From a virus, in the IMG/VR virus record IMGVR_UViG_3300046820_000054, positions 1 through 24,736 of that record: DNA of 24,736 bases. One strand, written 5' to 3'. The translations under genes were made by a program, and so were the position numbers. The stretch's first letter is position 1, and each line of letters opens with the position of its first letter. A model generated the notes under the pieces. It was not told where the DNA came from, did not search any database, and was given only the letters and a program-made list of their open reading frames with translations. Positions 918 to 17,401 of this stretch are shown one piece after another.

Positions 918-1868
918 TTAAGGTGTCAAGTCAGCAATGATGCCATGTGCGGCTTCGTTACGAACTTCCAATGTGTACTCGCACAGCAACTGTGTAGACT
1001 CATTGTCGCCAGTAACAGCCAACTCGTTGGTCTGGAAAGGACGCAAGTAAGCGATAGCAGCCATGTCGGGATCAAGCACAAATGCTGTCTCATCGCATGA
1101 GTTGGTGGAAGTCATAAAGCGGTTAGGCACAACAGAAACTGTACCAAAATCGCTCAAATAGACATCAGCCGCACCAATGATGGTGGTAGGAGCATTTGCA
1201 GGGGCCATGAAGCGTTGAGCAGCAATACCAGCAAAAGCAGAAACAACTTGCTTGTGTGCAGGGTTGACCATCAACACTTTAGGATTGCCACCAGAGGCGT
1301 ACACTTCACGGATAACAGTCTTCAAGATGTCTTCTGTAAAGGTGCGGTTTGTGCCGTTGGTACGAGCAGTAGTGCCAGAAGCACCAGCAGAACCACCAGA
1401 ACCAAAGTCACCATTGGTAGCCAACCAAGCCTGCAAACCACCCAATTTACGAGCAGTTGTAGAGTTGCCGTTAGCAGCGACTTGGTTGCTCAACAAAGAG
1501 GTTTCCATGTCACGCTTGATTTCGCTAGAAGCCTTGGCCAACTGATAAGCCTTTTCAGACTTACGACCAGCTTTGTCAACAGCGTTCAAAGTGCCAGAAA
1601 TCTTTACAGTTTTCTGTGCAATCTGGCAGCGGTTGCCAACACGGGTAGTTGGAGACATAGTAGCGTCAGAAGCGGTATCGCCTTCAACAGCAAAGTTTGA
1701 CAAAGTGGCGGCTGCCAAAGAGTCGGTTTGCCACTCGTGCAAAACAGCAGTTGCTTTTGTCTTACCAATGGAAGACATGAAAGGCGTATCTGTTGGTGAA
1801 ATCGAATAAATAACATCCGAAAGGTCTTCACGCATACCGATAGCGGTGTATGTTTGATATGTAGCCAT
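918..1868 (-). CDS. Major capsid protein, SU10-type (HK97 fold family)
   Basis: The 316-residue product starts MATYQTYTAIGMREDLSDVI and continues with YSISPTDTPFMSSIGKTKA, the N-terminal pattern of the SU10 major head protein family (formerly DUF5309). Further support comes from the conserved middle KTVKISGTLNAVDKAGRKSE, a helix with KRDMETSLLSNQ (about residues 118-129), a glycine/serine-rich loop (about 155-172), and a C-terminal TLEVRNEAAHGIIADLTP. Length fits the family. A good ribosome site (TTGGAG, about 7 nt before ATG) supports the start. It lies directly after the scaffold gene and before a terminator hairpin, as expected for the most highly expressed late gene. The fold assignment to HK97 follows from the family. 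Confidence 0.9.
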   Translation of the reverse strand: MATYQTYTAIGMREDLSDVIYSISPTDTPFMSSIGKTKATAVLHEWQTDSLAAATLSNFAVEGDTASDATMSPTTRVGNRCQIAQKTVKISGTLNAVDKAGRKSEKAYQLAKASSEIKRDMETSLLSNQVAANGNSTTARKLGGLQAWLATNGDFGSGGSAGASGTTARTNGTNRTFTEDILKTVIREVYASGGNPKVLMVNPAHKQVVSAFAGIAAQRFMAPANAPTTIIGAADVYLSDFGTVSVVPNRFMTSTNSCDETAFVLDPDMAAIAYLRPFQTNELAVTGDNESTQLLCEYTLEVRNEAAHGIIADLTP

Positions 1869-1883
1869 TTTAAAACTCCAAAA

Positions 1884-2819
1884 TTAAAAGAATCGTTCAA
1901 ATGCTTTGGCAGCGTCTGTGACTTTTCCAGTCTCACGCAACCTCTGCATTACCTGTTTGTCTTGTGACGACTTTGTAGGAGGCGCTGAAGTCCCAGATCG
2001 CATCATCTTAGGAGCAGACTGGAGTTTCTTGGTTAACTCAGGCTTGCTCTTTTGAAGTTGCTCATACTTCATTGCTTTATACAAACTCACCACAGCACGA
2101 CTGTCATATACGGAACTGAGTTCTTGGTCAGTCCAACCAACAGACTTCGCATAGTCACGGATTTGTTTCCGCACCGCATCACCCTGTGGCGTAGCCAACT
2201 CAGGAATCAAACTCACTAGCTTCTCAGACTCTTGACGGAGATGGTTTTGCAGAGAGGCTTGTTGCTCGGCTTGTTGCTGTTGGGCAAGGCGTTGCTGTTC
2301 GGCTCTAACTACTGCTAACTGCTTCTCACGCTGACTCTGTTCAGCTACCGCCACGGCATAACCAATGGGGTCTGTTTCCTTTAGAACATCTAAGTTCACA
2401 CCCTGATCTTGCTGACTTAGGAAGCTATCCAAAGCCTTCAACTTCTGGGCATAAGCCATTCGCTCTTGTTTCACCTGCTCTAGATGACTACGCTCGGCTT
2501 CGAGAGCCTTGCGCTGTTCAGCTAGTGCCTGAGACTTTTTAGTGTAGTCCGCACCTTGTTGATAACCTTTGATGAGTTCATCTTCGTCAACCTCGATTTC
2601 CTCACCAGCAGCCTTGACTTTATATCTAGGCTTAGGCGCAATTTCCTCGGATTCCTCCGCATACTCTTGCTCAACTTCATCACTCGCCTGTAGTTCCTCT
2701 GTTTGACCTTCGGCTTGGCTGTTGTCAGCTTCCTCTGAATCACCCATTAAACTCTCAAACGCTGAAGCGGCTTGGTTTACATTTAGGCTTTCACTCCCTT
2801 GTGGGTTGGTGTTTTCCAT
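1884..2819 (-). CDS. Capsid assembly scaffolding protein
   Basis: This 311-residue protein has an acidic, disordered-looking N-terminus (MENTNPQGSESLNVNQAASA, then many E/D/S). A short beta-rich segment follows (PRYKVKAAGEEIEVDEDELI, about residues 63-82), then a motif with KGYQQGADYTKKSQALAEQR leading into a long charged, Q-rich coiled coil (about 95-205). The basic C-terminus has SGTSAPPTKSSQDKQVMQRL and ends in KAFERFF. This layout and the position immediately before the major capsid gene are typical of podovirus-type scaffolds, whose C-terminus contacts the coat protein. It acts in prohead assembly and is expected to be lost from the mature virion. No protease is visible in this window. 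Confidence 0.85.
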   Translation of the reverse strand: MENTNPQGSESLNVNQAASAFESLMGDSEEADNSQAEGQTEELQASDEVEQEYAEESEEIAPKPRYKVKAAGEEIEVDEDELIKGYQQGADYTKKSQALAEQRKALEAERSHLEQVKQERMAYAQKLKALDSFLSQQDQGVNLDVLKETDPIGYAVAVAEQSQREKQLAVVRAEQQRLAQQQQAEQQASLQNHLRQESEKLVSLIPELATPQGDAVRKQIRDYAKSVGWTDQELSSVYDSRAVVSLYKAMKYEQLQKSKPELTKKLQSAPKMMRSGTSAPPTKSSQDKQVMQRLRETGKVTDAAKAFERFF

Positions 2820-2828
2820 GTGTCATCT

Positions 2829-2877
2829 CAAAAATCGCCAGAATCCGTCTGGACTGCGGTGTAGCTTTTACGCTACA
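2829..2877 (-). terminator. Two tandem hairpins, terminator or attenuator before the scaffold gene
   Basis: On the minus strand TGTAGC (2877-2872) pairs with GCTACA (2865-2860) around a 6-nt loop; this hairpin overlaps the stop codon of the preceding 79-aa gene. Then CCAGA (2852-2848) pairs with TCTGG (2842-2838) around 5 nt, followed by CGATTTTTG. The second hairpin plus five Ts is terminator-like but its stem is only 5 bp, so partial termination or mRNA processing is as likely as full termination. Confidence 0.45.
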
Positions 2878-3112
2878 GAATCTTCCACTTCTTATCTCTG
2901 ATCGCAGTCTCCGAGGCTAAGCCTTCTAGGTGTCCTGTAATCAGTTCAATCGTTCTAATGTGTCGATAAGCGTCTTCTCGTTTATCAATCTCACTAGCAT
3001 TTGTGTTAATTATCACACTAATCTGCTCTTTTTTCAAATTATCTATGACTTCTTTGAAAAAGTCATCATTTAACAGATTCTTAGCCCATTGAGCCAGTAG
3101 GTGTTTGTCCAT
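2873..3112 (-). CDS. Small helical head-module protein, unknown function (79 aa)
   Basis: The 79-residue product begins MDKHLLAQWAKNLLNDDFFK and looks all-helical. Its shape (LLNDDFFKEVIDNLKKEQIS followed by a REDAYRHIRTIELITGHLE helix) resembles small proteins of unknown role found in the head modules of many tailed phages, from memory. It overlaps the end of the 795-aa gene by 32 nt, so translation is probably coupled. No cysteines, membrane segment or catalytic motif. A chaperone or partner for the neighbouring large repeat protein is possible but unproven. Confidence 0.6.
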   Translation of the reverse strand: MDKHLLAQWAKNLLNDDFFKEVIDNLKKEQISVIINTNASEIDKREDAYRHIRTIELITGHLEGLASETAIRDKKWKIL

Positions 3113-5468
3113 ATTGGTTTTGTATTCCTGAAATTACATCGTTAATTGAGAGAACTTGGCTTGGCAGTACATCTCTGCTATTGCCCAAAATACTCCGCAA
3201 TTGGTTATAACTCATGTTTGATGGCTGATTGAACTGTACTGGCGCAGGAACTTTGCCATAATTAGGGTCTAAGAACTTCTCCCATTGTGTGCCAATCAAC
3301 AGATTACGATTGCCAAAATCAATAGGAGGCAACTGAGTTGGTGCAACACTAGGCAAGTCTTTTGTGTAAGTTGGAGACTTCCAATCTTCTGGAACAGGAA
3401 CAATCGGGAATCCAGTAGGACCAGTCTCTTGAGTTGTCGCACCCAATACGCTTGCACCCAATACACCTAAACGAATCATGTCAATGATCTCAGAGGCTGT
3501 GTATGTCTTAGGTGGTACTGTATTAGCAATCGGAGGAGCAACAATTGTAGGGGCTGGCTCTGTCTCGTTTGTAATCGTGCTTGGTCTTTCAGCAATAGTC
3601 GTAATCTGTGGGACAGTCTCTTGAATAGGAGGCGCAACAATCGTTGGAATGGGTTGCTCTGGCTCTTTAGGCGCTTGGCTAGTCATTACCAATTCAGGGA
3701 TTATTGAGGCGATAACTTGGTCAACAGTTGTAGGTGCTTCTACTTTAGGCGCTTCTACTCTTGGTGCTGTGACTTCAACAGGTGTTGGTGCTTGCTGAAC
3801 AGGAGGTTGCTCAACAGGTATCTGAGCAATCGCATTGATTACTTCGCTAACAGTCGGTGCAGTAGGTTGAACAGGCTCAGTCACTTGCACAGTTTCAATT
3901 GGCGCAACTGGTGTAGGAGTTGGCTCTACGACTGGCGGCTCTGTAACTACAGGCTGAATAATCGAATTTATTATTTCATTAACAGTTGGCGTAGTTGTCT
4001 GCACAGGCTCAGTAGGCTCAGTCACTCGTACTGTCTCTACTGGTGCAACTACCTCTGGAATTGGTTGTTGGTTAACAATTGCATTGATTATTTCATTGAC
4101 TGTTGGCGTAGGTGCTACAGGCGCAGAAACTTGAACATTCTCAATTGGAGGCTGAGTAATTGTTGGCTCAACAACAGGAGCAACCTCTTGGGGAACGAAT
4201 GATGAAGCATTGCCACCAATGTTATTGATGAACTCAGAAACATTTGTAACGCCAGCGGCTTTTAAATCTTTGACGAGTTGGTTTTGCAAAGCATCATTGA
4301 TCTGCTCAGTAGTACCACCAACAAAGTCAATTGGCACTTCTGGTGTTGGCAAAGATGGCAAATATGGCTTAACAATATCTGCAACAGCGCCACCTGCACC
4401 ACCAAGCAATGCACCTTTCGCAATACTGTCGCCAGTAATCGCTGAAGTGCTACCACCAACCAAAGCGCCAGTTAGTGCGTTTGTGGCTAGTGTTGAGGCT
4501 GTTGGGCCAAGCAAACTAGCCGCAGCAGGGCCAAGAATAGGTGTCAAAGCCGCAGCAATAATCGGTGCAAATACACCAATGTCATCACGGCTTGATGCAC
4601 CAGTCGTATAGAAAACAGGCTTGCCAGAAGCATCAAAATCTACTCTGTAGCCTGTGTTACCTTTTCCCTCAAAAGTACCACCAAATGCGTTACCAGTCTG
4701 TCGTTCGCTATATGTAATCGGTACAGCTTGGTTTGTTTCTTTGTTGCCGTAGGTTACTTGAGTGCCAATTGGTGCAGTAGCGTAGTCAATGCGACCGCCT
4801 TCAGTTTCATAAGAACCTGTTTGGACAATGTTAGGGTCAACAGGATTGCCTCGTTGGTCAACATAGCCACCACGACCATCAGGACGGACATCCTCTTGCA
4901 AGCCAGTCTGTGTGATCTTTCCAAACTGACTAATGTCTGTGATGCCAATGCCCGCCATGATCTTAGCCATGTCTTTAGCGGCTTGTTCAGCACCTACGCC
5001 ACCAGTCCATTTAGAAGTGTCACTAGAGCCTAAGATTTGCTTTGTCAGCGTATCAATAACTGATGCTGAAGGCTTATTCTCCTGTACTGGCTTTGCAGGT
5101 TGCAACTGCTCAACTGGTGCGTCTGCATCTCGTTGAATGGGTTGCTCAATTGGCTGTCTAGCAATGATCTCGTTGATTACAGACGGAGGCAATTGTGCTG
5201 CTATCTGATTGATAACTTCTTGAACAGATTGTGGCTCAACATAAGGTTGCTGAACTTCTGGCTGTTGGAAAACTGGCTGATACACAGGCTCTTGATAAAC
5301 TGGCTCTGGTGCTACATAGACAGGCGCAGGCGCTTGGTATACAGGCTCTGGTGCAATATAAACTGGCTCTTGGTAAACAGGCTGTAACTGCTCAATTTGC
5401 ATCAACAAGTCTTCAAGCGATACCTCGCCATCATTGTTGACCATTGAGATAAAGTTATTTCTAGCCAT
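3081..5468 (-). CDS. Large proline-rich repeat protein of the head module (795 aa)
   Basis: Unrecognised function. The N-terminus carries a tyrosine/proline repeat at residues 30-67 (units such as PVYQEPVYIAPEPVYQAPAP). A globular part with WTGGVGAEQAAKDMAKIM starts near 154 and is followed by a Gly/Tyr-rich beta-like region. A hydrophobic Ala/Gly segment (297-365, with APIIAAALTPILGPAAASLL) could insert in or lie on membrane. The rest is P/V/T-rich linker holding repeated short helices of the form [ST]-h-x-[EDQ]-h-I-x-x-I: TVNEIINAI (456), TVNEIINSI (495), TVSEVINAI (539), TVDQVIASI (581), TASEIIDMI (657), with divergent copies at 17, 81, 96, 409 and 774. It sits between portal and scaffold, 2 nt after the portal stop. 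An internal virion or ejected protein, or an assembly hub, are the main possibilities; this is inference from position and composition. Confidence 0.7.
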   Translation of the reverse strand: MARNNFISMVNNDGEVSLEDLLMQIEQLQPVYQEPVYIAPEPVYQAPAPVYVAPEPVYQEPVYQPVFQQPEVQQPYVEPQSVQEVINQIAAQLPPSVINEIIARQPIEQPIQRDADAPVEQLQPAKPVQENKPSASVIDTLTKQILGSSDTSKWTGGVGAEQAAKDMAKIMAGIGITDISQFGKITQTGLQEDVRPDGRGGYVDQRGNPVDPNIVQTGSYETEGGRIDYATAPIGTQVTYGNKETNQAVPITYSERQTGNAFGGTFEGKGNTGYRVDFDASGKPVFYTTGASSRDDIGVFAPIIAAALTPILGPAAASLLGPTASTLATNALTGALVGGSTSAITGDSIAKGALLGGAGGAVADIVKPYLPSLPTPEVPIDFVGGTTEQINDALQNQLVKDLKAAGVTNVSEFINNIGGNASSFVPQEVAPVVEPTITQPPIENVQVSAPVAPTPTVNEIINAIVNQQPIPEVVAPVETVRVTEPTEPVQTTTPTVNEIINSIIQPVVTEPPVVEPTPTPVAPIETVQVTEPVQPTAPTVSEVINAIAQIPVEQPPVQQAPTPVEVTAPRVEAPKVEAPTTVDQVIASIIPELVMTSQAPKEPEQPIPTIVAPPIQETVPQITTIAERPSTITNETEPAPTIVAPPIANTVPPKTYTASEIIDMIRLGVLGASVLGATTQETGPTGFPIVPVPEDWKSPTYTKDLPSVAPTQLPPIDFGNRNLLIGTQWEKFLDPNYGKVPAPVQFNQPSNMSYNQLRSILGNSRDVLPSQVLSINDVISGIQNQYGQTPTGSMG
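3699..4103 (-). repeat. Coding repeat array: short TVxEIIxxI helices in proline-rich linkers
   Basis: Residues 456-590 of the 795-aa protein contain four near-regular units spaced about 39-44 residues apart. Each consists of the helix (TVNEIINAI, TVNEIINSI, TVSEVINAI, TVDQVIASI) and a linker rich in PVVEPTPTP and VAPIETVQVTEP. Linker pieces also repeat (ETVRVTEP at 478, ETVQVTEP at 525). Tandem duplication followed by divergence is the simplest origin. Confidence 0.75.
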
Positions 5469-5470
5469 GA

Positions 5471-7603
5471 TTAGCCCTTAATTTCTACATTGCTAGTAAT
5501 GCCAGCACCTACCTTCATTGCTTTCAATTGAGCTTCAACCTCAAACTCTTGCTGTTTCATCGCAAAGTAAGCCTGTTGTTTCTCACGCTCAAGCATCAAC
5601 TTAGCAGCCTCTTTCTCACGCATCAATTGCATTTCAAGACCAGCCTTTTGTTGAGCCATTTGCATATCAATCTGCATTTGCTGTTGTTGCAACTGAATGT
5701 CAGCTTGGGCTTTCTGTTGGTTAGCTTGTATCTCAGCCTGTGTTCTAGCCATCATTGCTTGAACCTCTGGAGGCATTTGCTGTTGCTGTGGCGGAGGATT
5801 GCTCAAAGCCTGATCTTGCTCTGGTGTAATAGGCTTGTAGAACTCAGCAGAGTCCTTAAAGCCTGCAATCTCAACCATACGACCCAAAGTGCCACGATAC
5901 TGTGCAGGGCTTACATAAGGGTTAGCAGGGCCGTACTGAGCAATCAACTGCTCTTGTTTGGCAAGAACCATCGACAGCATAGCCATTTGCTCTTGTCTGT
6001 TACCTGCACCCAAACCAACATTGATAGAAACATCGTACTGGTTAGCCCATGTGCGAGGGTCAAACTCTACGAATTCGCCTCTCATACGAACTAAACGAGG
6101 CTTGTCCTGATACTTACAGAGAAGATGCAAGATGCCTTGGAATAGAGACTTAACACCTGTCTCAGCAAAGATTCGAGCCATTAGTTCAATCTTGCCTGCG
6201 CCAGCTTGTTGCATAGACGCAACAGCCGCAGCAGTCACATTCTGCAAGATAGATGGGTCTAAGCCCTGAGAAGCATCAGATACGCCAGTACGCTTAGATT
6301 GGACTGTATCCAAGTACTGAAGCATTGGGAAAGCCTGAGCCGCTACATTCTGCACTACAAGTTGTTGAACAGCTCCCTGAGACTTAGCACGAATAACACC
6401 ACCAGCAGTAGATGTAAGCAAGTCGTCAAGGTTTACCTGCCCTTCAACAGCGACTACTCGTGCGTTGTTTGTCAGATAGAGGTTATCCAACATTTGACGA
6501 GTGATAGTAGTCTTGATTAACTGAATGTCTGTAGTTCTGTCAGCAAGTGAGTTGCCAAAGAACTTGTGCGGAATTGGAATCGGGCAGATTGAATGGAATG
6601 GAACATAGTCCACTTCTTCAATCATTTCCTTGCCATTCTCATCCTCAAGAATCTCGTTTGAGGCATAGAACACCTGAACGAGTGAAGCAATGCCTTTGCC
6701 CTCTATATCAGTCTTGACATAGCACTCAAAGACCTCAATCTCTTGCATTGATGGGTCATCAGTCTGAACTTGGTAAGGCTGCTCACCAGCAGAGAATCTA
6801 ACCACACGCTCAGGGGTGTAGGCTAGTGCATCGTCCATTTGCAAGCCTTCAACTTGCTTTTTGTTGAATCCCATAGCCACCAAAGTGCTACGAGTTAACA
6901 TTTGACGATGGGCTACGAATGGGCTGTCAGCAATCGTTCTAGCTTTCTTGCTAATCAAGAACTCTTCTGGCGGGACATTCTCAATCGTTACCTTGCCTGA
7001 TTTCTTTTTCTTTTGGACGACAACATTGTGTGTCGCACCCATAACTGGCATACCCATAGGGTCAACAACTGGCTGTCCCATTGGGTCAAATATTGGGAAT
7101 TCTGTCGTATCTTGCTCGACAATCTCCATGCTCTCATCGCTCATCAGCATGGCTAACTCGTCCTCAGACAAGTTGAAGTAACGCTCTTTAGTGATGTCCT
7201 CTTTGTCTTCCCAATAGGCTTTTACGATGCCGTTCTTCTGCAAAAGAGCATCTTTAAACCAGTCGTGCAGAATGGCTACGCCTTCGTTATCCCTTGAGAA
7301 TACCCAGTTACAGTACTCGGTGGCTTGCTTGGCAGAGGCTTCGTCTTGTGGGCCTTGTGGCTCAAATACTACAATATTGTCTGAGCCTGTAAAGATACGG
7401 ACTAGGCTAGGCAATGCGCCATCAATGGCTTCGGCTACCTCACCAGTAACGATCTGGCTCTTTCCCTCTGTCTCATTTCCTAATGGCTGACGCAGATAAT
7501 ACTGAAGCGCTTGCTTTCTTTGCTCAACAGTTTCGCTTTCAATGTAGCCAATGGCATCATCAATTTCTGCCTGCAAGATGGATTTCAATTCATTTCGGCT
7601 CAT
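5471..7603 (-). CDS. Portal protein, SU10/P22-type
   Basis: The 710-residue product has the usual size and features of a podovirus-type portal. The N-terminal wing has DAIGYIESETVEQRKQALQY and QPLGNETEGKSQIVTGEVAE. A middle with ENVPPEEFLISKKARTIADS follows, and then the stem and crown region with HSICPIPIPHKFFGNSLADR and DIQLIKTTITRQMLDNLYLT. The last ~115 residues (594-710) are a glutamine- and methionine-rich coiled coil (QAEIQANQQKAQADIQLQQQ), the barrel-like tail seen in this family. It forms the dodecameric DNA channel at the capsid vertex. The ATG overlaps the stop of the upstream HNH gene (ATGA), suggesting that the endonuclease gene was inserted directly in front of the portal gene. 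Confidence 0.9.
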   Translation of the reverse strand: MSRNELKSILQAEIDDAIGYIESETVEQRKQALQYYLRQPLGNETEGKSQIVTGEVAEAIDGALPSLVRIFTGSDNIVVFEPQGPQDEASAKQATEYCNWVFSRDNEGVAILHDWFKDALLQKNGIVKAYWEDKEDITKERYFNLSEDELAMLMSDESMEIVEQDTTEFPIFDPMGQPVVDPMGMPVMGATHNVVVQKKKKSGKVTIENVPPEEFLISKKARTIADSPFVAHRQMLTRSTLVAMGFNKKQVEGLQMDDALAYTPERVVRFSAGEQPYQVQTDDPSMQEIEVFECYVKTDIEGKGIASLVQVFYASNEILEDENGKEMIEEVDYVPFHSICPIPIPHKFFGNSLADRTTDIQLIKTTITRQMLDNLYLTNNARVVAVEGQVNLDDLLTSTAGGVIRAKSQGAVQQLVVQNVAAQAFPMLQYLDTVQSKRTGVSDASQGLDPSILQNVTAAAVASMQQAGAGKIELMARIFAETGVKSLFQGILHLLCKYQDKPRLVRMRGEFVEFDPRTWANQYDVSINVGLGAGNRQEQMAMLSMVLAKQEQLIAQYGPANPYVSPAQYRGTLGRMVEIAGFKDSAEFYKPITPEQDQALSNPPPQQQQMPPEVQAMMARTQAEIQANQQKAQADIQLQQQQMQIDMQMAQQKAGLEMQLMREKEAAKLMLEREKQQAYFAMKQQEFEVEAQLKAMKVGAGITSNVEIKG

Positions 7604-9864: not shown

Positions 9865-11475
9865 TTATTCTAACAGACTTTGGATTTCTTTACGCTTTTC
9901 TTCATCTAGTAATCCTGTTGCACCTAAAGGCAAAGCTGGAAAAGCAAACATCTTGTCGCCAAACTTCTTAAACAAATCTACTCGTTCTTTAGGTGTTTCA
10001 TAGAAGTAAATCTTTTCAATACCTTGGCTCTTTAGGTAATCAATGGATTTCTGCGGAACATCTTTAGGAACAATTGCACCTTCAAACTCACTTACTTGGA
10101 CTGCCCTTTGAGGCTTAATCTCAAAGTATTCTGTAGGCATTGACTTGACTTTGTTCATAAATATCTGAACATCAGCCTTTAGTGCCTCTGGAACATCTTT
10201 ATAGATTTTATCTAAGAAGTTTACATTCTTGACTTGCCCAAGTTCATATAAAGCATCTTCTGGCTTGTAAGCATAGTTATTGTTTCCCTCTAGGTTTCTC
10301 ATCCTATCGGTCAGATCATTAAAGGCATCACTTATCTTTTTCTTGATAGGCTCAAACTCTTTGGTTGAAACAATGTTTTCTCGTGCAGCTTTTACTTGCT
10401 CAAAGTTCTTAAATTTAGGTGTAGCTACAGCACGAATGTTACCTACGCCATAGAAATAACCTTCAGCGCCAGCACCACCCTTCATCTCTTTGACAAGATT
10501 ATCTAATGTTGCCTCTGCATAGCGTCTATTGCCAGAATCTGTATAACCTTTGAAAATGCGTTCTGTTGGAGTTACACCTGCGTCAGCAAGAACATTGTCC
10601 ATGTTTGCAGACCAACTATCGTAAGCAGGTCTTAAATCTCGCACACGCTGATTAACCTCTTGTTGGAATTCCCAAGGCTTTTCTTTAAAAGAAGATGGGT
10701 CAGGCAACATTCCTTGTTCATCAAGAAACTTTGCTTTGTAAATATCAGAGTCACTTCTGTATTTCCAATCATTCTTTAATCTGTCAACTCTATATTCACC
10801 ATCTGGTATTTTTTGAGCAACATCAGAAAAATAATTGTTTATATTTTTAATACTTTTTGTGTCAAATTTATAGTCAATCTCAGGCGTTCTAGATGTGTAA
10901 GCATCAAAACCATAAACAGGATTCTTGGCAGACGGAACAGCCATTGACTTGTCGCCAATCAATGAGATATTGCCAAAGCCACTTAGTGGGTTTTCTACAT
11001 TGGAAACAGCAATAGATGGTACTGGCATACCACCAACTTTTTCAACTCTTGCCAACTTTTCTGGCGAAAGATTGTGGTGAACAATCATTTCTTTGCCAGC
11101 TTCTACATTAGGAACAAATTGAGATGGCGCTTTTTTACTCAGAAGACCACCAACATCTTCAATACTTGCACCTACTGGTAAACCCTTAGTAGCCTTTGCT
11201 AAACCTACAGAAGCAGGTAACAGCGTCATAGCCGCCTCAATCGCTTCTGGACGAGGCTTAGTGGTCATTCCACTACCAGTAGTTAACGGCTCACCATAAG
11301 CCATTCTTTCCATTGTTTGTTGAACAGCAGGTACTCCCAAGAGATTCATTAACATCTCTACAGGAGGATTTTCGTAACCAAATGGCTTTGCACCAAATTG
11401 TTGGGCTTTCTTTAGGCGGTCAGCAAGTAAACCCAGAATTGGGTTTGACATTGGAGTTGCCCTTAGTTCAGCCAT
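9865..11475 (-). CDS. Polyvalent-type protein, probable virion or ejected protein (536 aa)
   Basis: Function not known. An N-terminal helical part (1-100, including MSNPILGLLADRLKKAQQFG) precedes a recognisable module at about 131-198: IVHHNLSPEKLARVEKVGGM, then PVPSIAVSN, FGNISLIGDKS and DAYTSRTP. From memory this VHNL...GG.PVPS(I/L)A pattern recurs in large polyvalent proteins of phages and conjugative elements, in a domain without a settled function. The C-terminal part has GIEKIYFYETPKERVDLFKK and MFAFPALPLGATGLLDEE; the FA.PAL.....GLL tail is also typical of such proteins. It lies next to terminase genes in the late region. Cargo injected with the DNA is a plausible role but unproven. 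The start overlaps the preceding stop (TAATG). Confidence 0.65.
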   Translation of the reverse strand: MAELRATPMSNPILGLLADRLKKAQQFGAKPFGYENPPVEMLMNLLGVPAVQQTMERMAYGEPLTTGSGMTTKPRPEAIEAAMTLLPASVGLAKATKGLPVGASIEDVGGLLSKKAPSQFVPNVEAGKEMIVHHNLSPEKLARVEKVGGMPVPSIAVSNVENPLSGFGNISLIGDKSMAVPSAKNPVYGFDAYTSRTPEIDYKFDTKSIKNINNYFSDVAQKIPDGEYRVDRLKNDWKYRSDSDIYKAKFLDEQGMLPDPSSFKEKPWEFQQEVNQRVRDLRPAYDSWSANMDNVLADAGVTPTERIFKGYTDSGNRRYAEATLDNLVKEMKGGAGAEGYFYGVGNIRAVATPKFKNFEQVKAARENIVSTKEFEPIKKKISDAFNDLTDRMRNLEGNNNYAYKPEDALYELGQVKNVNFLDKIYKDVPEALKADVQIFMNKVKSMPTEYFEIKPQRAVQVSEFEGAIVPKDVPQKSIDYLKSQGIEKIYFYETPKERVDLFKKFGDKMFAFPALPLGATGLLDEEKRKEIQSLLE

Positions 11476-16499: not shown

Positions 16500-16593
16500 C
16501 AGTTAACTCCAATGCTTTGTTTATGAGGTGTAGAGGATAAGGTACGCCATCACGCACCTTGTCTAGTAGTTTCATGGCTTCATAGTGACTCAC
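16480..16593 (-). CDS. Tiny protein with GTG start (37 aa)
   Basis: A 37-codon frame starts at GTG 16593, preceded by GGAGAATCCTAA (GGAG at a good distance). The product is MSHYEAMKLLDKVRDGVPYP, then LHLINKALELTGDIQQA. The pattern EA..LLD.VR.G..YP...IN.AL.LTGD is familiar as a very small phage protein of unknown role (from memory). An internal ATG at 16575 is an alternative start. It overlaps the methyltransferase end by 14 nt and the next gene by 20 nt. Confidence 0.55.
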   Translation of the reverse strand: MSHYEAMKLLDKVRDGVPYPLHLINKALELTGDIQQA

Positions 16594-17401
16594 TTAGGAT
16601 TCTCCATGCTGTTGCAGCGCAAAGTGGAACTTGTCCATTTCCAATGGCTTTAAGTCTGTCCACCCTAGCGGCCACCCCATCAGCCACTCTACCCACGTTG
16701 GGTTCAGTATCCCACCAGTCTTGTTCTTGTCTATTAAAACAACTGTTCCAAGACCCGGTGACTGTCTCTTGAACTCTGATGGGCTTCCCTTCTCGTTTGA
16801 GTTGTGACAAGTTGGTGTAGGAAATTTCTCTTGTCTTTTCTTTAATGCTTTTCTGCTGTTGCTCCCACCATCTAATCCTGTCGTGTTGGGCGTGTGGAAG
16901 CTGTCCACGCCATTTGGCGACAATCCAGATTCTGTCCCTCTGATGGTTTGCTCCAACATCCGCTGCTCCCAACACTCCCCATCTCGCATCAAACCCCATT
17001 GAGGCCAAGTCTCCGAGAACTCGTCCAAGTCCCCTAGAAGTGAGCATTGGTGAGTTTTCCACGAACACGAATCTAGGTCGTACTTCGTGAATGATCCTCG
17101 CCATTTCTCCCCACATTCCAGATCGTTCTCCGTCAATTCCGACACCTTTTCCTGCGGCTGAGATGTCTTGGCATGGAAACCCGCCAGATACAACGTCAAC
17201 AATTCCCTTCCAAGGTCGTCCGTCAAAGGTTTGAACATCATCCCAAATCGGGAAAGGCGGGAGAACTTTGTCATTTTGTCTGGCGCACAGTACGCTTGCT
17301 GGGTATTGCTCCCATTCAACGGCACAGACTGTTCTCCAACCAAGGAGGTGTCCACCAAGTATTCCTCCACCAGCGCCTGCGAAAAGAGCCAACTCATTCA
17401 T
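16580..17401 (-). CDS. DNA cytosine-C5 methyltransferase
   Basis: The 273-residue product has the C5-methyltransferase motifs in order: motif I FAGAGGGILG (7-16), motif IV GGFPCQDIS (73-81) with catalytic C77, and motif VI ENSP (115-118; the usual ENV is altered but the Glu is kept). Motif VIII is QRDRIWIVA (154-162), and the motif X region is RLKAIGNGQVP (249-259). The target-recognition region (about 165-240) is short, as in other phage enzymes. It methylates cytosine, probably to evade host restriction; no partner nuclease is nearby. The start overlaps the DUF1376 gene stop (ATGA). The whole coding region is also open in a second frame (16594-17397). Confidence 0.93.
   Translation of the reverse strand: MNELALFAGAGGGILGGHLLGWRTVCAVEWEQYPASVLCARQNDKVLPPFPIWDDVQTFDGRPWKGIVDVVSGGFPCQDISAAGKGVGIDGERSGMWGEMARIIHEVRPRFVFVENSPMLTSRGLGRVLGDLASMGFDARWGVLGAADVGANHQRDRIWIVAKWRGQLPHAQHDRIRWWEQQQKSIKEKTREISYTNLSQLKREGKPIRVQETVTGSWNSCFNRQEQDWWDTEPNVGRVADGVAARVDRLKAIGNGQVPLCAATAWRILSESL
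16594..17397 (-). CDS. Long ORF nested out of frame inside the methyltransferase gene (267 aa)
   Basis: A 267-codon frame, starting ATG 17397 only 4 nt after the methyltransferase ATG, spans nearly the whole methyltransferase gene in another frame. The shared upstream GGCGG lies 7 nt before this ATG but only 3 nt before the methyltransferase ATG. The translation includes SCSWKTHQCSLLGDLDEFSE (110-129), TWPQWGLMRDGECWE (130-144), FPTPT (192-196) and LNPTWVEWLMGWPLGWTDLK (231-250). I recall these blocks from proteins annotated in many phages and bacteria, sometimes near methyltransferases. It may be a real overprinted gene, or a shadow of conserved methyltransferase codons that is itself widely annotated. 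No known function. Confidence 0.45.
   Translation of the reverse strand: MSWLFSQALVEEYLVDTSLVGEQSVPLNGSNTQQAYCAPDKMTKFSRLSRFGMMFKPLTDDLGRELLTLYLAGFHAKTSQPQEKVSELTENDLECGEKWRGSFTKYDLDSCSWKTHQCSLLGDLDEFSETWPQWGLMRDGECWEQRMLEQTIRGTESGLSPNGVDSFHTPNTTGLDGGSNSRKALKKRQEKFPTPTCHNSNEKGSPSEFKRQSPGLGTVVLIDKNKTGGILNPTWVEWLMGWPLGWTDLKPLEMDKFHFALQQHGES

Follow-up and report, generated by a model that had tools for sequence, protein, structure and literature searches.

The gene between portal and scaffold

What kind of protein does this virus encode between its portal and scaffold genes, and what role, if any, falls to the short helix motif repeated along it? The sequence analysed is a 24.7-kb virus record (24,736 nucleotides, hereafter the window), and we refer to the protein as X. 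An earlier reading of the sequence had placed its open reading frame at 3081–5468. The frame is indeed intact, with 795 codons on the minus strand, but position 3081 is the last base of the stop codon. The location in the head module holds as well, with an SU10-type portal gene on one side and a 79-aa gene followed by the scaffold gene on the other. The complete minus-strand order is terminase, an HNH-like gene, SU10-type portal, X, the 79-aa gene, scaffold and SU10-type capsid protein, and the last codons of X overlap the start of the 79-aa gene.

5471..7603, minus: SU10-type portal protein (PF23899, 2e-217)
3084..5468, minus: protein X, whole, 795 aa, the portal–scaffold slot gene
2873..3112, minus: 79-aa protein, phrog_12935, a PHROG match that assigns no role
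1884..2819, minus: head scaffolding protein, phrog_3927
918..1868, minus: SU10-type major capsid protein

In distant podoviruses, too, the 79-aa gene is retained at this place, flanked by the portal and scaffold genes.

Distribution of the X family

Searches of X against Pfam and PHROG gave no match, and for these two collections the statement that no known family explains the protein is borne out. Relatives of X were found in 111 stretches of viral contigs and, among GenBank phage records, by search in a single one; MW202462 contains a further, divergent member, recognised by eye and with the C-terminal profile. The GenBank phage records found to contain X all derive from metagenomes. The X family is a common yet unannotated gene of environmental phages. 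Two hypothetical proteins, UOF80803.1 of MW202710 and UOF77134.1 of MW202462, are divergent members in the same slot that share with X the GFDIVPVP-W-P element and a related C-terminal end; unlike X, they have 508 and 540 aa, respectively, and the helix array was not detected in either. A contig scan of genomes gave no relative, and therefore no prophage or host link can be drawn for X. Family members give only weak, mixed PHROG matches: three match ‘head fiber protein’ (best 9e-5), and 3 of 37 weakly match phrog_342, an ejection/internal virion protein family (best 0.0042), which X itself does not match.

The order portal, X, 79-aa gene and scaffold is repeated in members with an SU10-type portal. 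The portals beside X are mostly 92–99% identical in L002–L081. For X itself, modular and hypervariable next to this conserved neighbour, identity extends from nearly complete down to about 30%. A large slot gene is absent from Methylophilales phage Venkman, Pelagibacter phage HTVC106P, PaP3 and MW202481. Since these phages share the same head module, X is an accessory gene.

Modules of X and their exchange

From the N-terminus, the modules of X are a variable region, a folded domain, an Ala/Gly hydrophobic stretch, P/T/V linkers with 0–7 helix units depending on the member, and the C-terminus. Residue numbers are given in parentheses.

5394..5420, minus: motif copy SLEDLLMQI (17–25), a relaxed match; the structure model has a helix at 18–27
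5229..5384, minus: PVYxxPEPVY array (29–80), indel-rich in close relatives
5202..5228, minus: motif copy SVQEVINQI (81–89), by pattern match, profile and structure model
4593..5078, minus: folded domain (131–292), two helices and a sheet, the only confidently folded part of X
4362..4580, minus: Ala/Gly hydrophobic, glycine-zipper-like stretch (297–369)
4194..4352, minus: segment 373–425, of different sequence in the very close relatives L005 and L007
3687..4151, minus: four helix units with P/T/V linkers (440–594), by pattern match and profile
4077..4103, minus: motif copy TVNEIINAI (456–464), by pattern match, profile and structure model
3960..3986, minus: motif copy TVNEIINSI (495–503), by pattern match and profile
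3828..3854, minus: motif copy TVSEVINAI (539–547), by pattern match and profile
3702..3728, minus: motif copy TVDQVIASI (581–589), by pattern match and profile
3429..3500, minus: second hydrophobic helix (657–680), conserved in position, directly before the C-terminal region
3150..3419, minus: conserved C-terminal region (684–773), predicted to be mostly unstructured by itself
3084..3149, minus: universal C-terminal helix and tail SINDVISGIQNQYGQTPTGSMG (774–795), by family alignment and pN/pS

The PVY array and the Ala/Gly hydrophobic stretch had both been noticed earlier, and both are present. The latter reaches a peak hydropathy of 1.85 over 21 aa and is conserved in close relatives (pN/pS 0.12), with a membrane-like score in some members only. 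The folded domain had been missed; in the predicted structure it has a pLDDT of about 85–90. A PDB profile search with this domain returned nothing significant (best E 0.53), and neither the whole model nor the domain gave a convincing match with Foldseek and VIA-align (best Foldseek E 0.03–0.2, Z ≤ 2.5). A missing structural match does not prove that X has a new fold.

Modularity is seen in the locus L095, which has exactly domain 131–292 in common with the window, at 93.6% DNA identity over 471 bp. In about 6 kb on either side of the domain, tblastn found no match to the window's portal, scaffold or major capsid protein (MCP). Because such DNA identity accompanies no detectable similarity in head genes, the domain is taken to be an exchanged module, moving between phages. 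Its other settings are varied. In L110, L128, L129, L134 and L141 it belongs to proteins next or close to a phrog_3287 tail protein; those adjoining it in L110, L134 and L141 are 1200–2000 aa long, and the one in L110 is also near a weak DNA-ejection-protein match. In L017/L117-type phages the gene with the domain follows the capsid gene and lies between the MCP and tail-fibre genes, and in L138 it lies between a different portal and a probable scaffold. As a separate observation, proteins of 1700–2000 aa with this domain occur in L110, L134 and L141, the last also having an SGNH domain. The L134 and L141 proteins have a GDGQSDSIPAMLADGEYVF-type C-terminus, which is also matched in cyanophages and, for L134, in Caulobacter phages GB2A and RW.

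At the N-terminus, family members variously have P/Q/V-rich arrays, a short ‘DILGWL’ domain or an SGNH/GDSL hydrolase, of which there are two kinds; many relatives have such a hydrolase. SGNH hydrolases score above the Pfam cut-off in L066 (1.5e-17), L130 (4.8e-14) and L141 (1.8e-13). The L066 domain has intact-looking catalytic blocks (GDS...GMN...DIVHP), and the second kind is divergent. X of the window has no Pfam match to an SGNH/GDSL hydrolase.

The repeated helix motif

The sequence-only reading had counted about ten copies of the motif [ST]-h-x-[EDQ]-h-I-x-x-I and had likened X to a multivalent string of docking helices. The count was too high, but the repetition itself is far above chance. 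The strict pattern matches X seven times (at 81, 456, 495, 539, 581, 657 and 774) and the relaxed pattern eight times, the extra match being at residue 17, compared with means of 0.02 and 0.08 in same-composition shuffles (n=2000) and maxima of one and two in any single shuffle. The motif was absent from all 16 other genes of the window that were scanned. One strict match, TASEIIDMI at 657, is probably not a copy, since it starts the second hydrophobic helix and relatives read DPIKVAQLAL there. Spacing is regular only among the four clear copies (456, 495, 539 and 581), with units of 39, 44 and 42 aa. We take the motif to be a classical helix N-cap ([ST]xx[ED]) combined with an amphipathic pattern, hydrophobic at positions 2, 5, 6 and 9. 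Large parts of X are predicted to be disordered, and X has the layout of a multivalent tether, with short amphipathic helices, predicted at low confidence, repeated within disordered linkers.

Recent tandem duplication of the helix units at the DNA level was considered and found unsupported. TRF did not report the helix array as a tandem repeat beyond short arrays, its best score being a 21-nt × 3.6 repeat inside the PVY array, and unit-to-unit DNA identity in L002 equals or barely exceeds that of codon-shuffled controls.

A comparison of copy number among related phages had been proposed earlier. With a profile built from members, helix-unit counts across the family range from 0 to 7. L002, whose portal is 98.9% identical to that of the window, has two additional units. 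L014/L015 have lost the array beside a portal that is 97% identical, and many other members lack any internal copy. The internal array is lineage-specific and dispensable. The earlier reading would have been contradicted by relatives that lack the motif and conserve the rest, and L014/L015 go part of the way towards this. What survives of the docking string is its C-terminal copy, which is kept throughout and has pN = 0 in close relatives. From the variation in copy number, the loss in L014/L015, the constraint on the motif, only slightly above that on linkers, and the near-identity of the internal TINDVISQI of L010 to its own C-terminal TINDVISGI, we conclude with moderate confidence that the array consists of copies of the helix type represented by the universal C-terminal one, and that these copies can expand in number and be dispensed with. 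The additional helices are probably docking copies in degenerate form.

It is also possible, although we would not put it first, that the array has no binding role at all, being a low-complexity linker in which capped helices arise and drift and only the C-terminal helix matters. The absence of the array from L014/L015 and much of the family, the low confidence of the predicted helices and a pN/pS in close relatives of 0.28 at motif positions, close to the 0.39 in linkers, all speak for it. On the other hand, seven matches were found where 0.02 were expected, the pattern is retained in nearly all aligned copies from close relatives, and a further clade (L029, L072) carries an array of its own built on this helix core. 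This possibility concerns the array only and is compatible with the explanation of the whole protein that we favour below.

The conserved C-terminus

The C-terminal 110 residues of X, overlooked by the earlier reading, are conserved. Together with the preceding hydrophobic helix they give the signature GFxIVPVPxxW...GTQWEKFLDPNYG...SIND[IV]ISGIQNQYGQ, the end of which is nearly invariant. The C-terminal helix is the only universal one in members with an SU10-type portal, and the C-terminus is conserved as far as L082, with pN about 0.2 against pS 0.5–0.7 in distant members. Conservation merely through the overlap with the 79-aa gene was rejected for residues 684–785, which lie outside the overlap and have a pS of about 0.6.

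The SIND..QYGQ end is present in 77/77 complete loci that have an SU10 portal immediately upstream, although these loci are related by descent, include some duplicates of one contig and do not represent 77 independent events. Of the loci with at least 1.5 kb upstream but without an SU10 portal, 26/27 have other ends. The sole exception, L036 (1–6606), was dismissed as an inverted chimeric contig, in which the head genes are reversed and X then follows in forward orientation. The C-terminal end tracks the SU10-type portal, but the association is confounded with common descent. The portal tail AQLKAMK..GAGI[TS]SN.EI was considered as a partner of X; nearly all members have it and those slot-less phages that were checked lack it, but this association is likewise inseparable from descent. 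A PDB profile search with the C-terminus of X returned nothing significant (best E 0.13). Its predicted lack of structure would suit a peptide that acquires its fold on contact with a partner.

Comparison with known systems

The genes of MuF proteins directly follow portal genes, the toxins that these proteins carry are variable, and SPP1 gp7 occurs in complex with the portal (PMC5576092). X resembles them in that its gene lies immediately downstream of the portal gene; they are head proteins, with variable effector modules in some members. However, Pfam gave no MuF domain (PF04233 / PF06152) for X or for nine relatives, and in X the attachment candidate is C-terminal, the variable part is N-terminal and the chain is largely disordered. 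Podovirus ejection proteins are mosaic (PMC8954989), and those of SU10, gp20–24, are encoded elsewhere (PMC9509320). The ejection proteins of P22, T7 and SU10 are like X in being mosaic, domain-swapping and enzyme-bearing proteins of short-tailed phages. Unlike them, X lies between portal and scaffold rather than in an ejection cassette after the tail genes (only domain 131–292 adjoins tail genes, and this in other phages), and X has no clear family match. Moreover, the related phage L082 has a separate downstream gene resembling a DNA ejection protein, which indicates that X is not needed as an ejection machine. By the tests made, X would be neither a MuF nor a podovirus ejection protein.

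A parallel in position is gene 5 of phiGT1 (L143 4918–6081), which occupies the same portal–scaffold slot in a related head module and matches the polyvalent-protein effector ART-PolyVal (PF18760) at 1e-6, slightly under the Pfam cut-off. X, in contrast, has no ART domain, and no sequence relation was seen between the two. Carboxysome CsoS2 and microcompartment encapsulation helices also have short amphipathic helices or repeats, with disordered linkers in between. X shares this spacing, but its array is dispensable and there is no known sequence relation. The architecture of X is a variation on a known one, that of portal-adjacent modular cargo.

A proposed role for X

The slot, the swapped enzyme modules, the hydrophobic stretch and the lineage-matched C-terminus would fit an accessory protein that is loaded into the head and leaves it with the DNA, a location and fate that we infer from the sequences. 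We give about an even chance to the full proposal that X is an accessory, modular, head-loaded protein, probably ejected and anchored by its C-terminus, with the extra helices as degenerate docking copies. The C-terminal 110 residues and the hydrophobic helix before them would, during assembly, anchor X at the portal or inside the prohead. Modules in its N-terminal and middle parts would be exchangeable cargo, represented by domain 131–292 here and by SGNH hydrolases in relatives. The Ala/Gly stretch could aid entry into the host envelope along with the DNA. Threading of X through the portal channel is plausible because most of the chain is disordered. The capping-box helix repeats, as degenerate relatives of the C-terminal helix, might offer extra weak attachment points whose number is uncritical. 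Points against the proposal are the separate ejection-protein-like gene of L082, the phages that lack a large slot gene, the membrane-like score of the hydrophobic stretch in some members only, the location of the shared domain in L017-type phages, the confounding of the portal association with descent and the poor PHROG matches. If the proposal is right, packaged accessory proteins are plugged in at the portal–scaffold slot in SU10-type podoviruses, and the conserved C-terminal peptide offers a handle for studying protein loading into such heads.

An unlikely alternative is that X faces outwards as a head or tail appendage, with the P/T/V linkers as stalks and the SGNH domains of relatives acting on host surface sugars. 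Besides these SGNH/GDSL domains, the three ‘head fiber protein’ matches and the proximity of L017-type genes to tail-fibre genes are in line with it. A slot directly after the portal and before the scaffold, the conserved Ala/Gly stretch and the extensive predicted disorder are not, and the structure searches of the X model found no fibre-type fold. We are equally doubtful of a portal-linked loading string, distinct from MuF and ejection-cassette proteins, in which the C-terminal helix and a variable number of degenerate copies bind several subunits of a single prohead component and load exchangeable enzyme cargo for delivery to the host; if true, such multivalency would be more surprising than portal-adjacent modular cargo. 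Slightly less probable still is a pure assembly factor, tethering portal, scaffold and capsid in the prohead and never delivered to the host, which agrees with the position of X, its conserved, SU10-portal-linked C-terminus and its predicted multivalent, disordered layout, but some phages with the same head module lack X, and the enzyme modules and the module exchange with phages of no detectably similar head genes would be unexpected.

Other genes in the window

Two further observations concern other parts of the window. A C5-cytosine methyltransferase gene (PF00145, 1.6e-31) overlaps a 267-aa ORF almost entirely, in the +1 frame of the same strand; the pair occupies 16580–17401 and 16594–17397 on the minus strand. 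In 37 records by tblastn, from phages of Acinetobacter, Pseudomonas and Vibrio and from MW202462, the +1 frame is open as well (30–53% identity), and on synonymous-codon permutation it stays open in 0 to 2.7% of trials. The two are probably a real dual-coding pair, although conservation of the methylase accounts for part of the similarity in the +1 frame; a literature search found no description of the pair. The second observation concerns 9865–11475 on the minus strand, directly upstream of a putative small terminase gene, where a protein of 536 aa is encoded that has a PBECR5 nuclease-like domain (6.8e-23).
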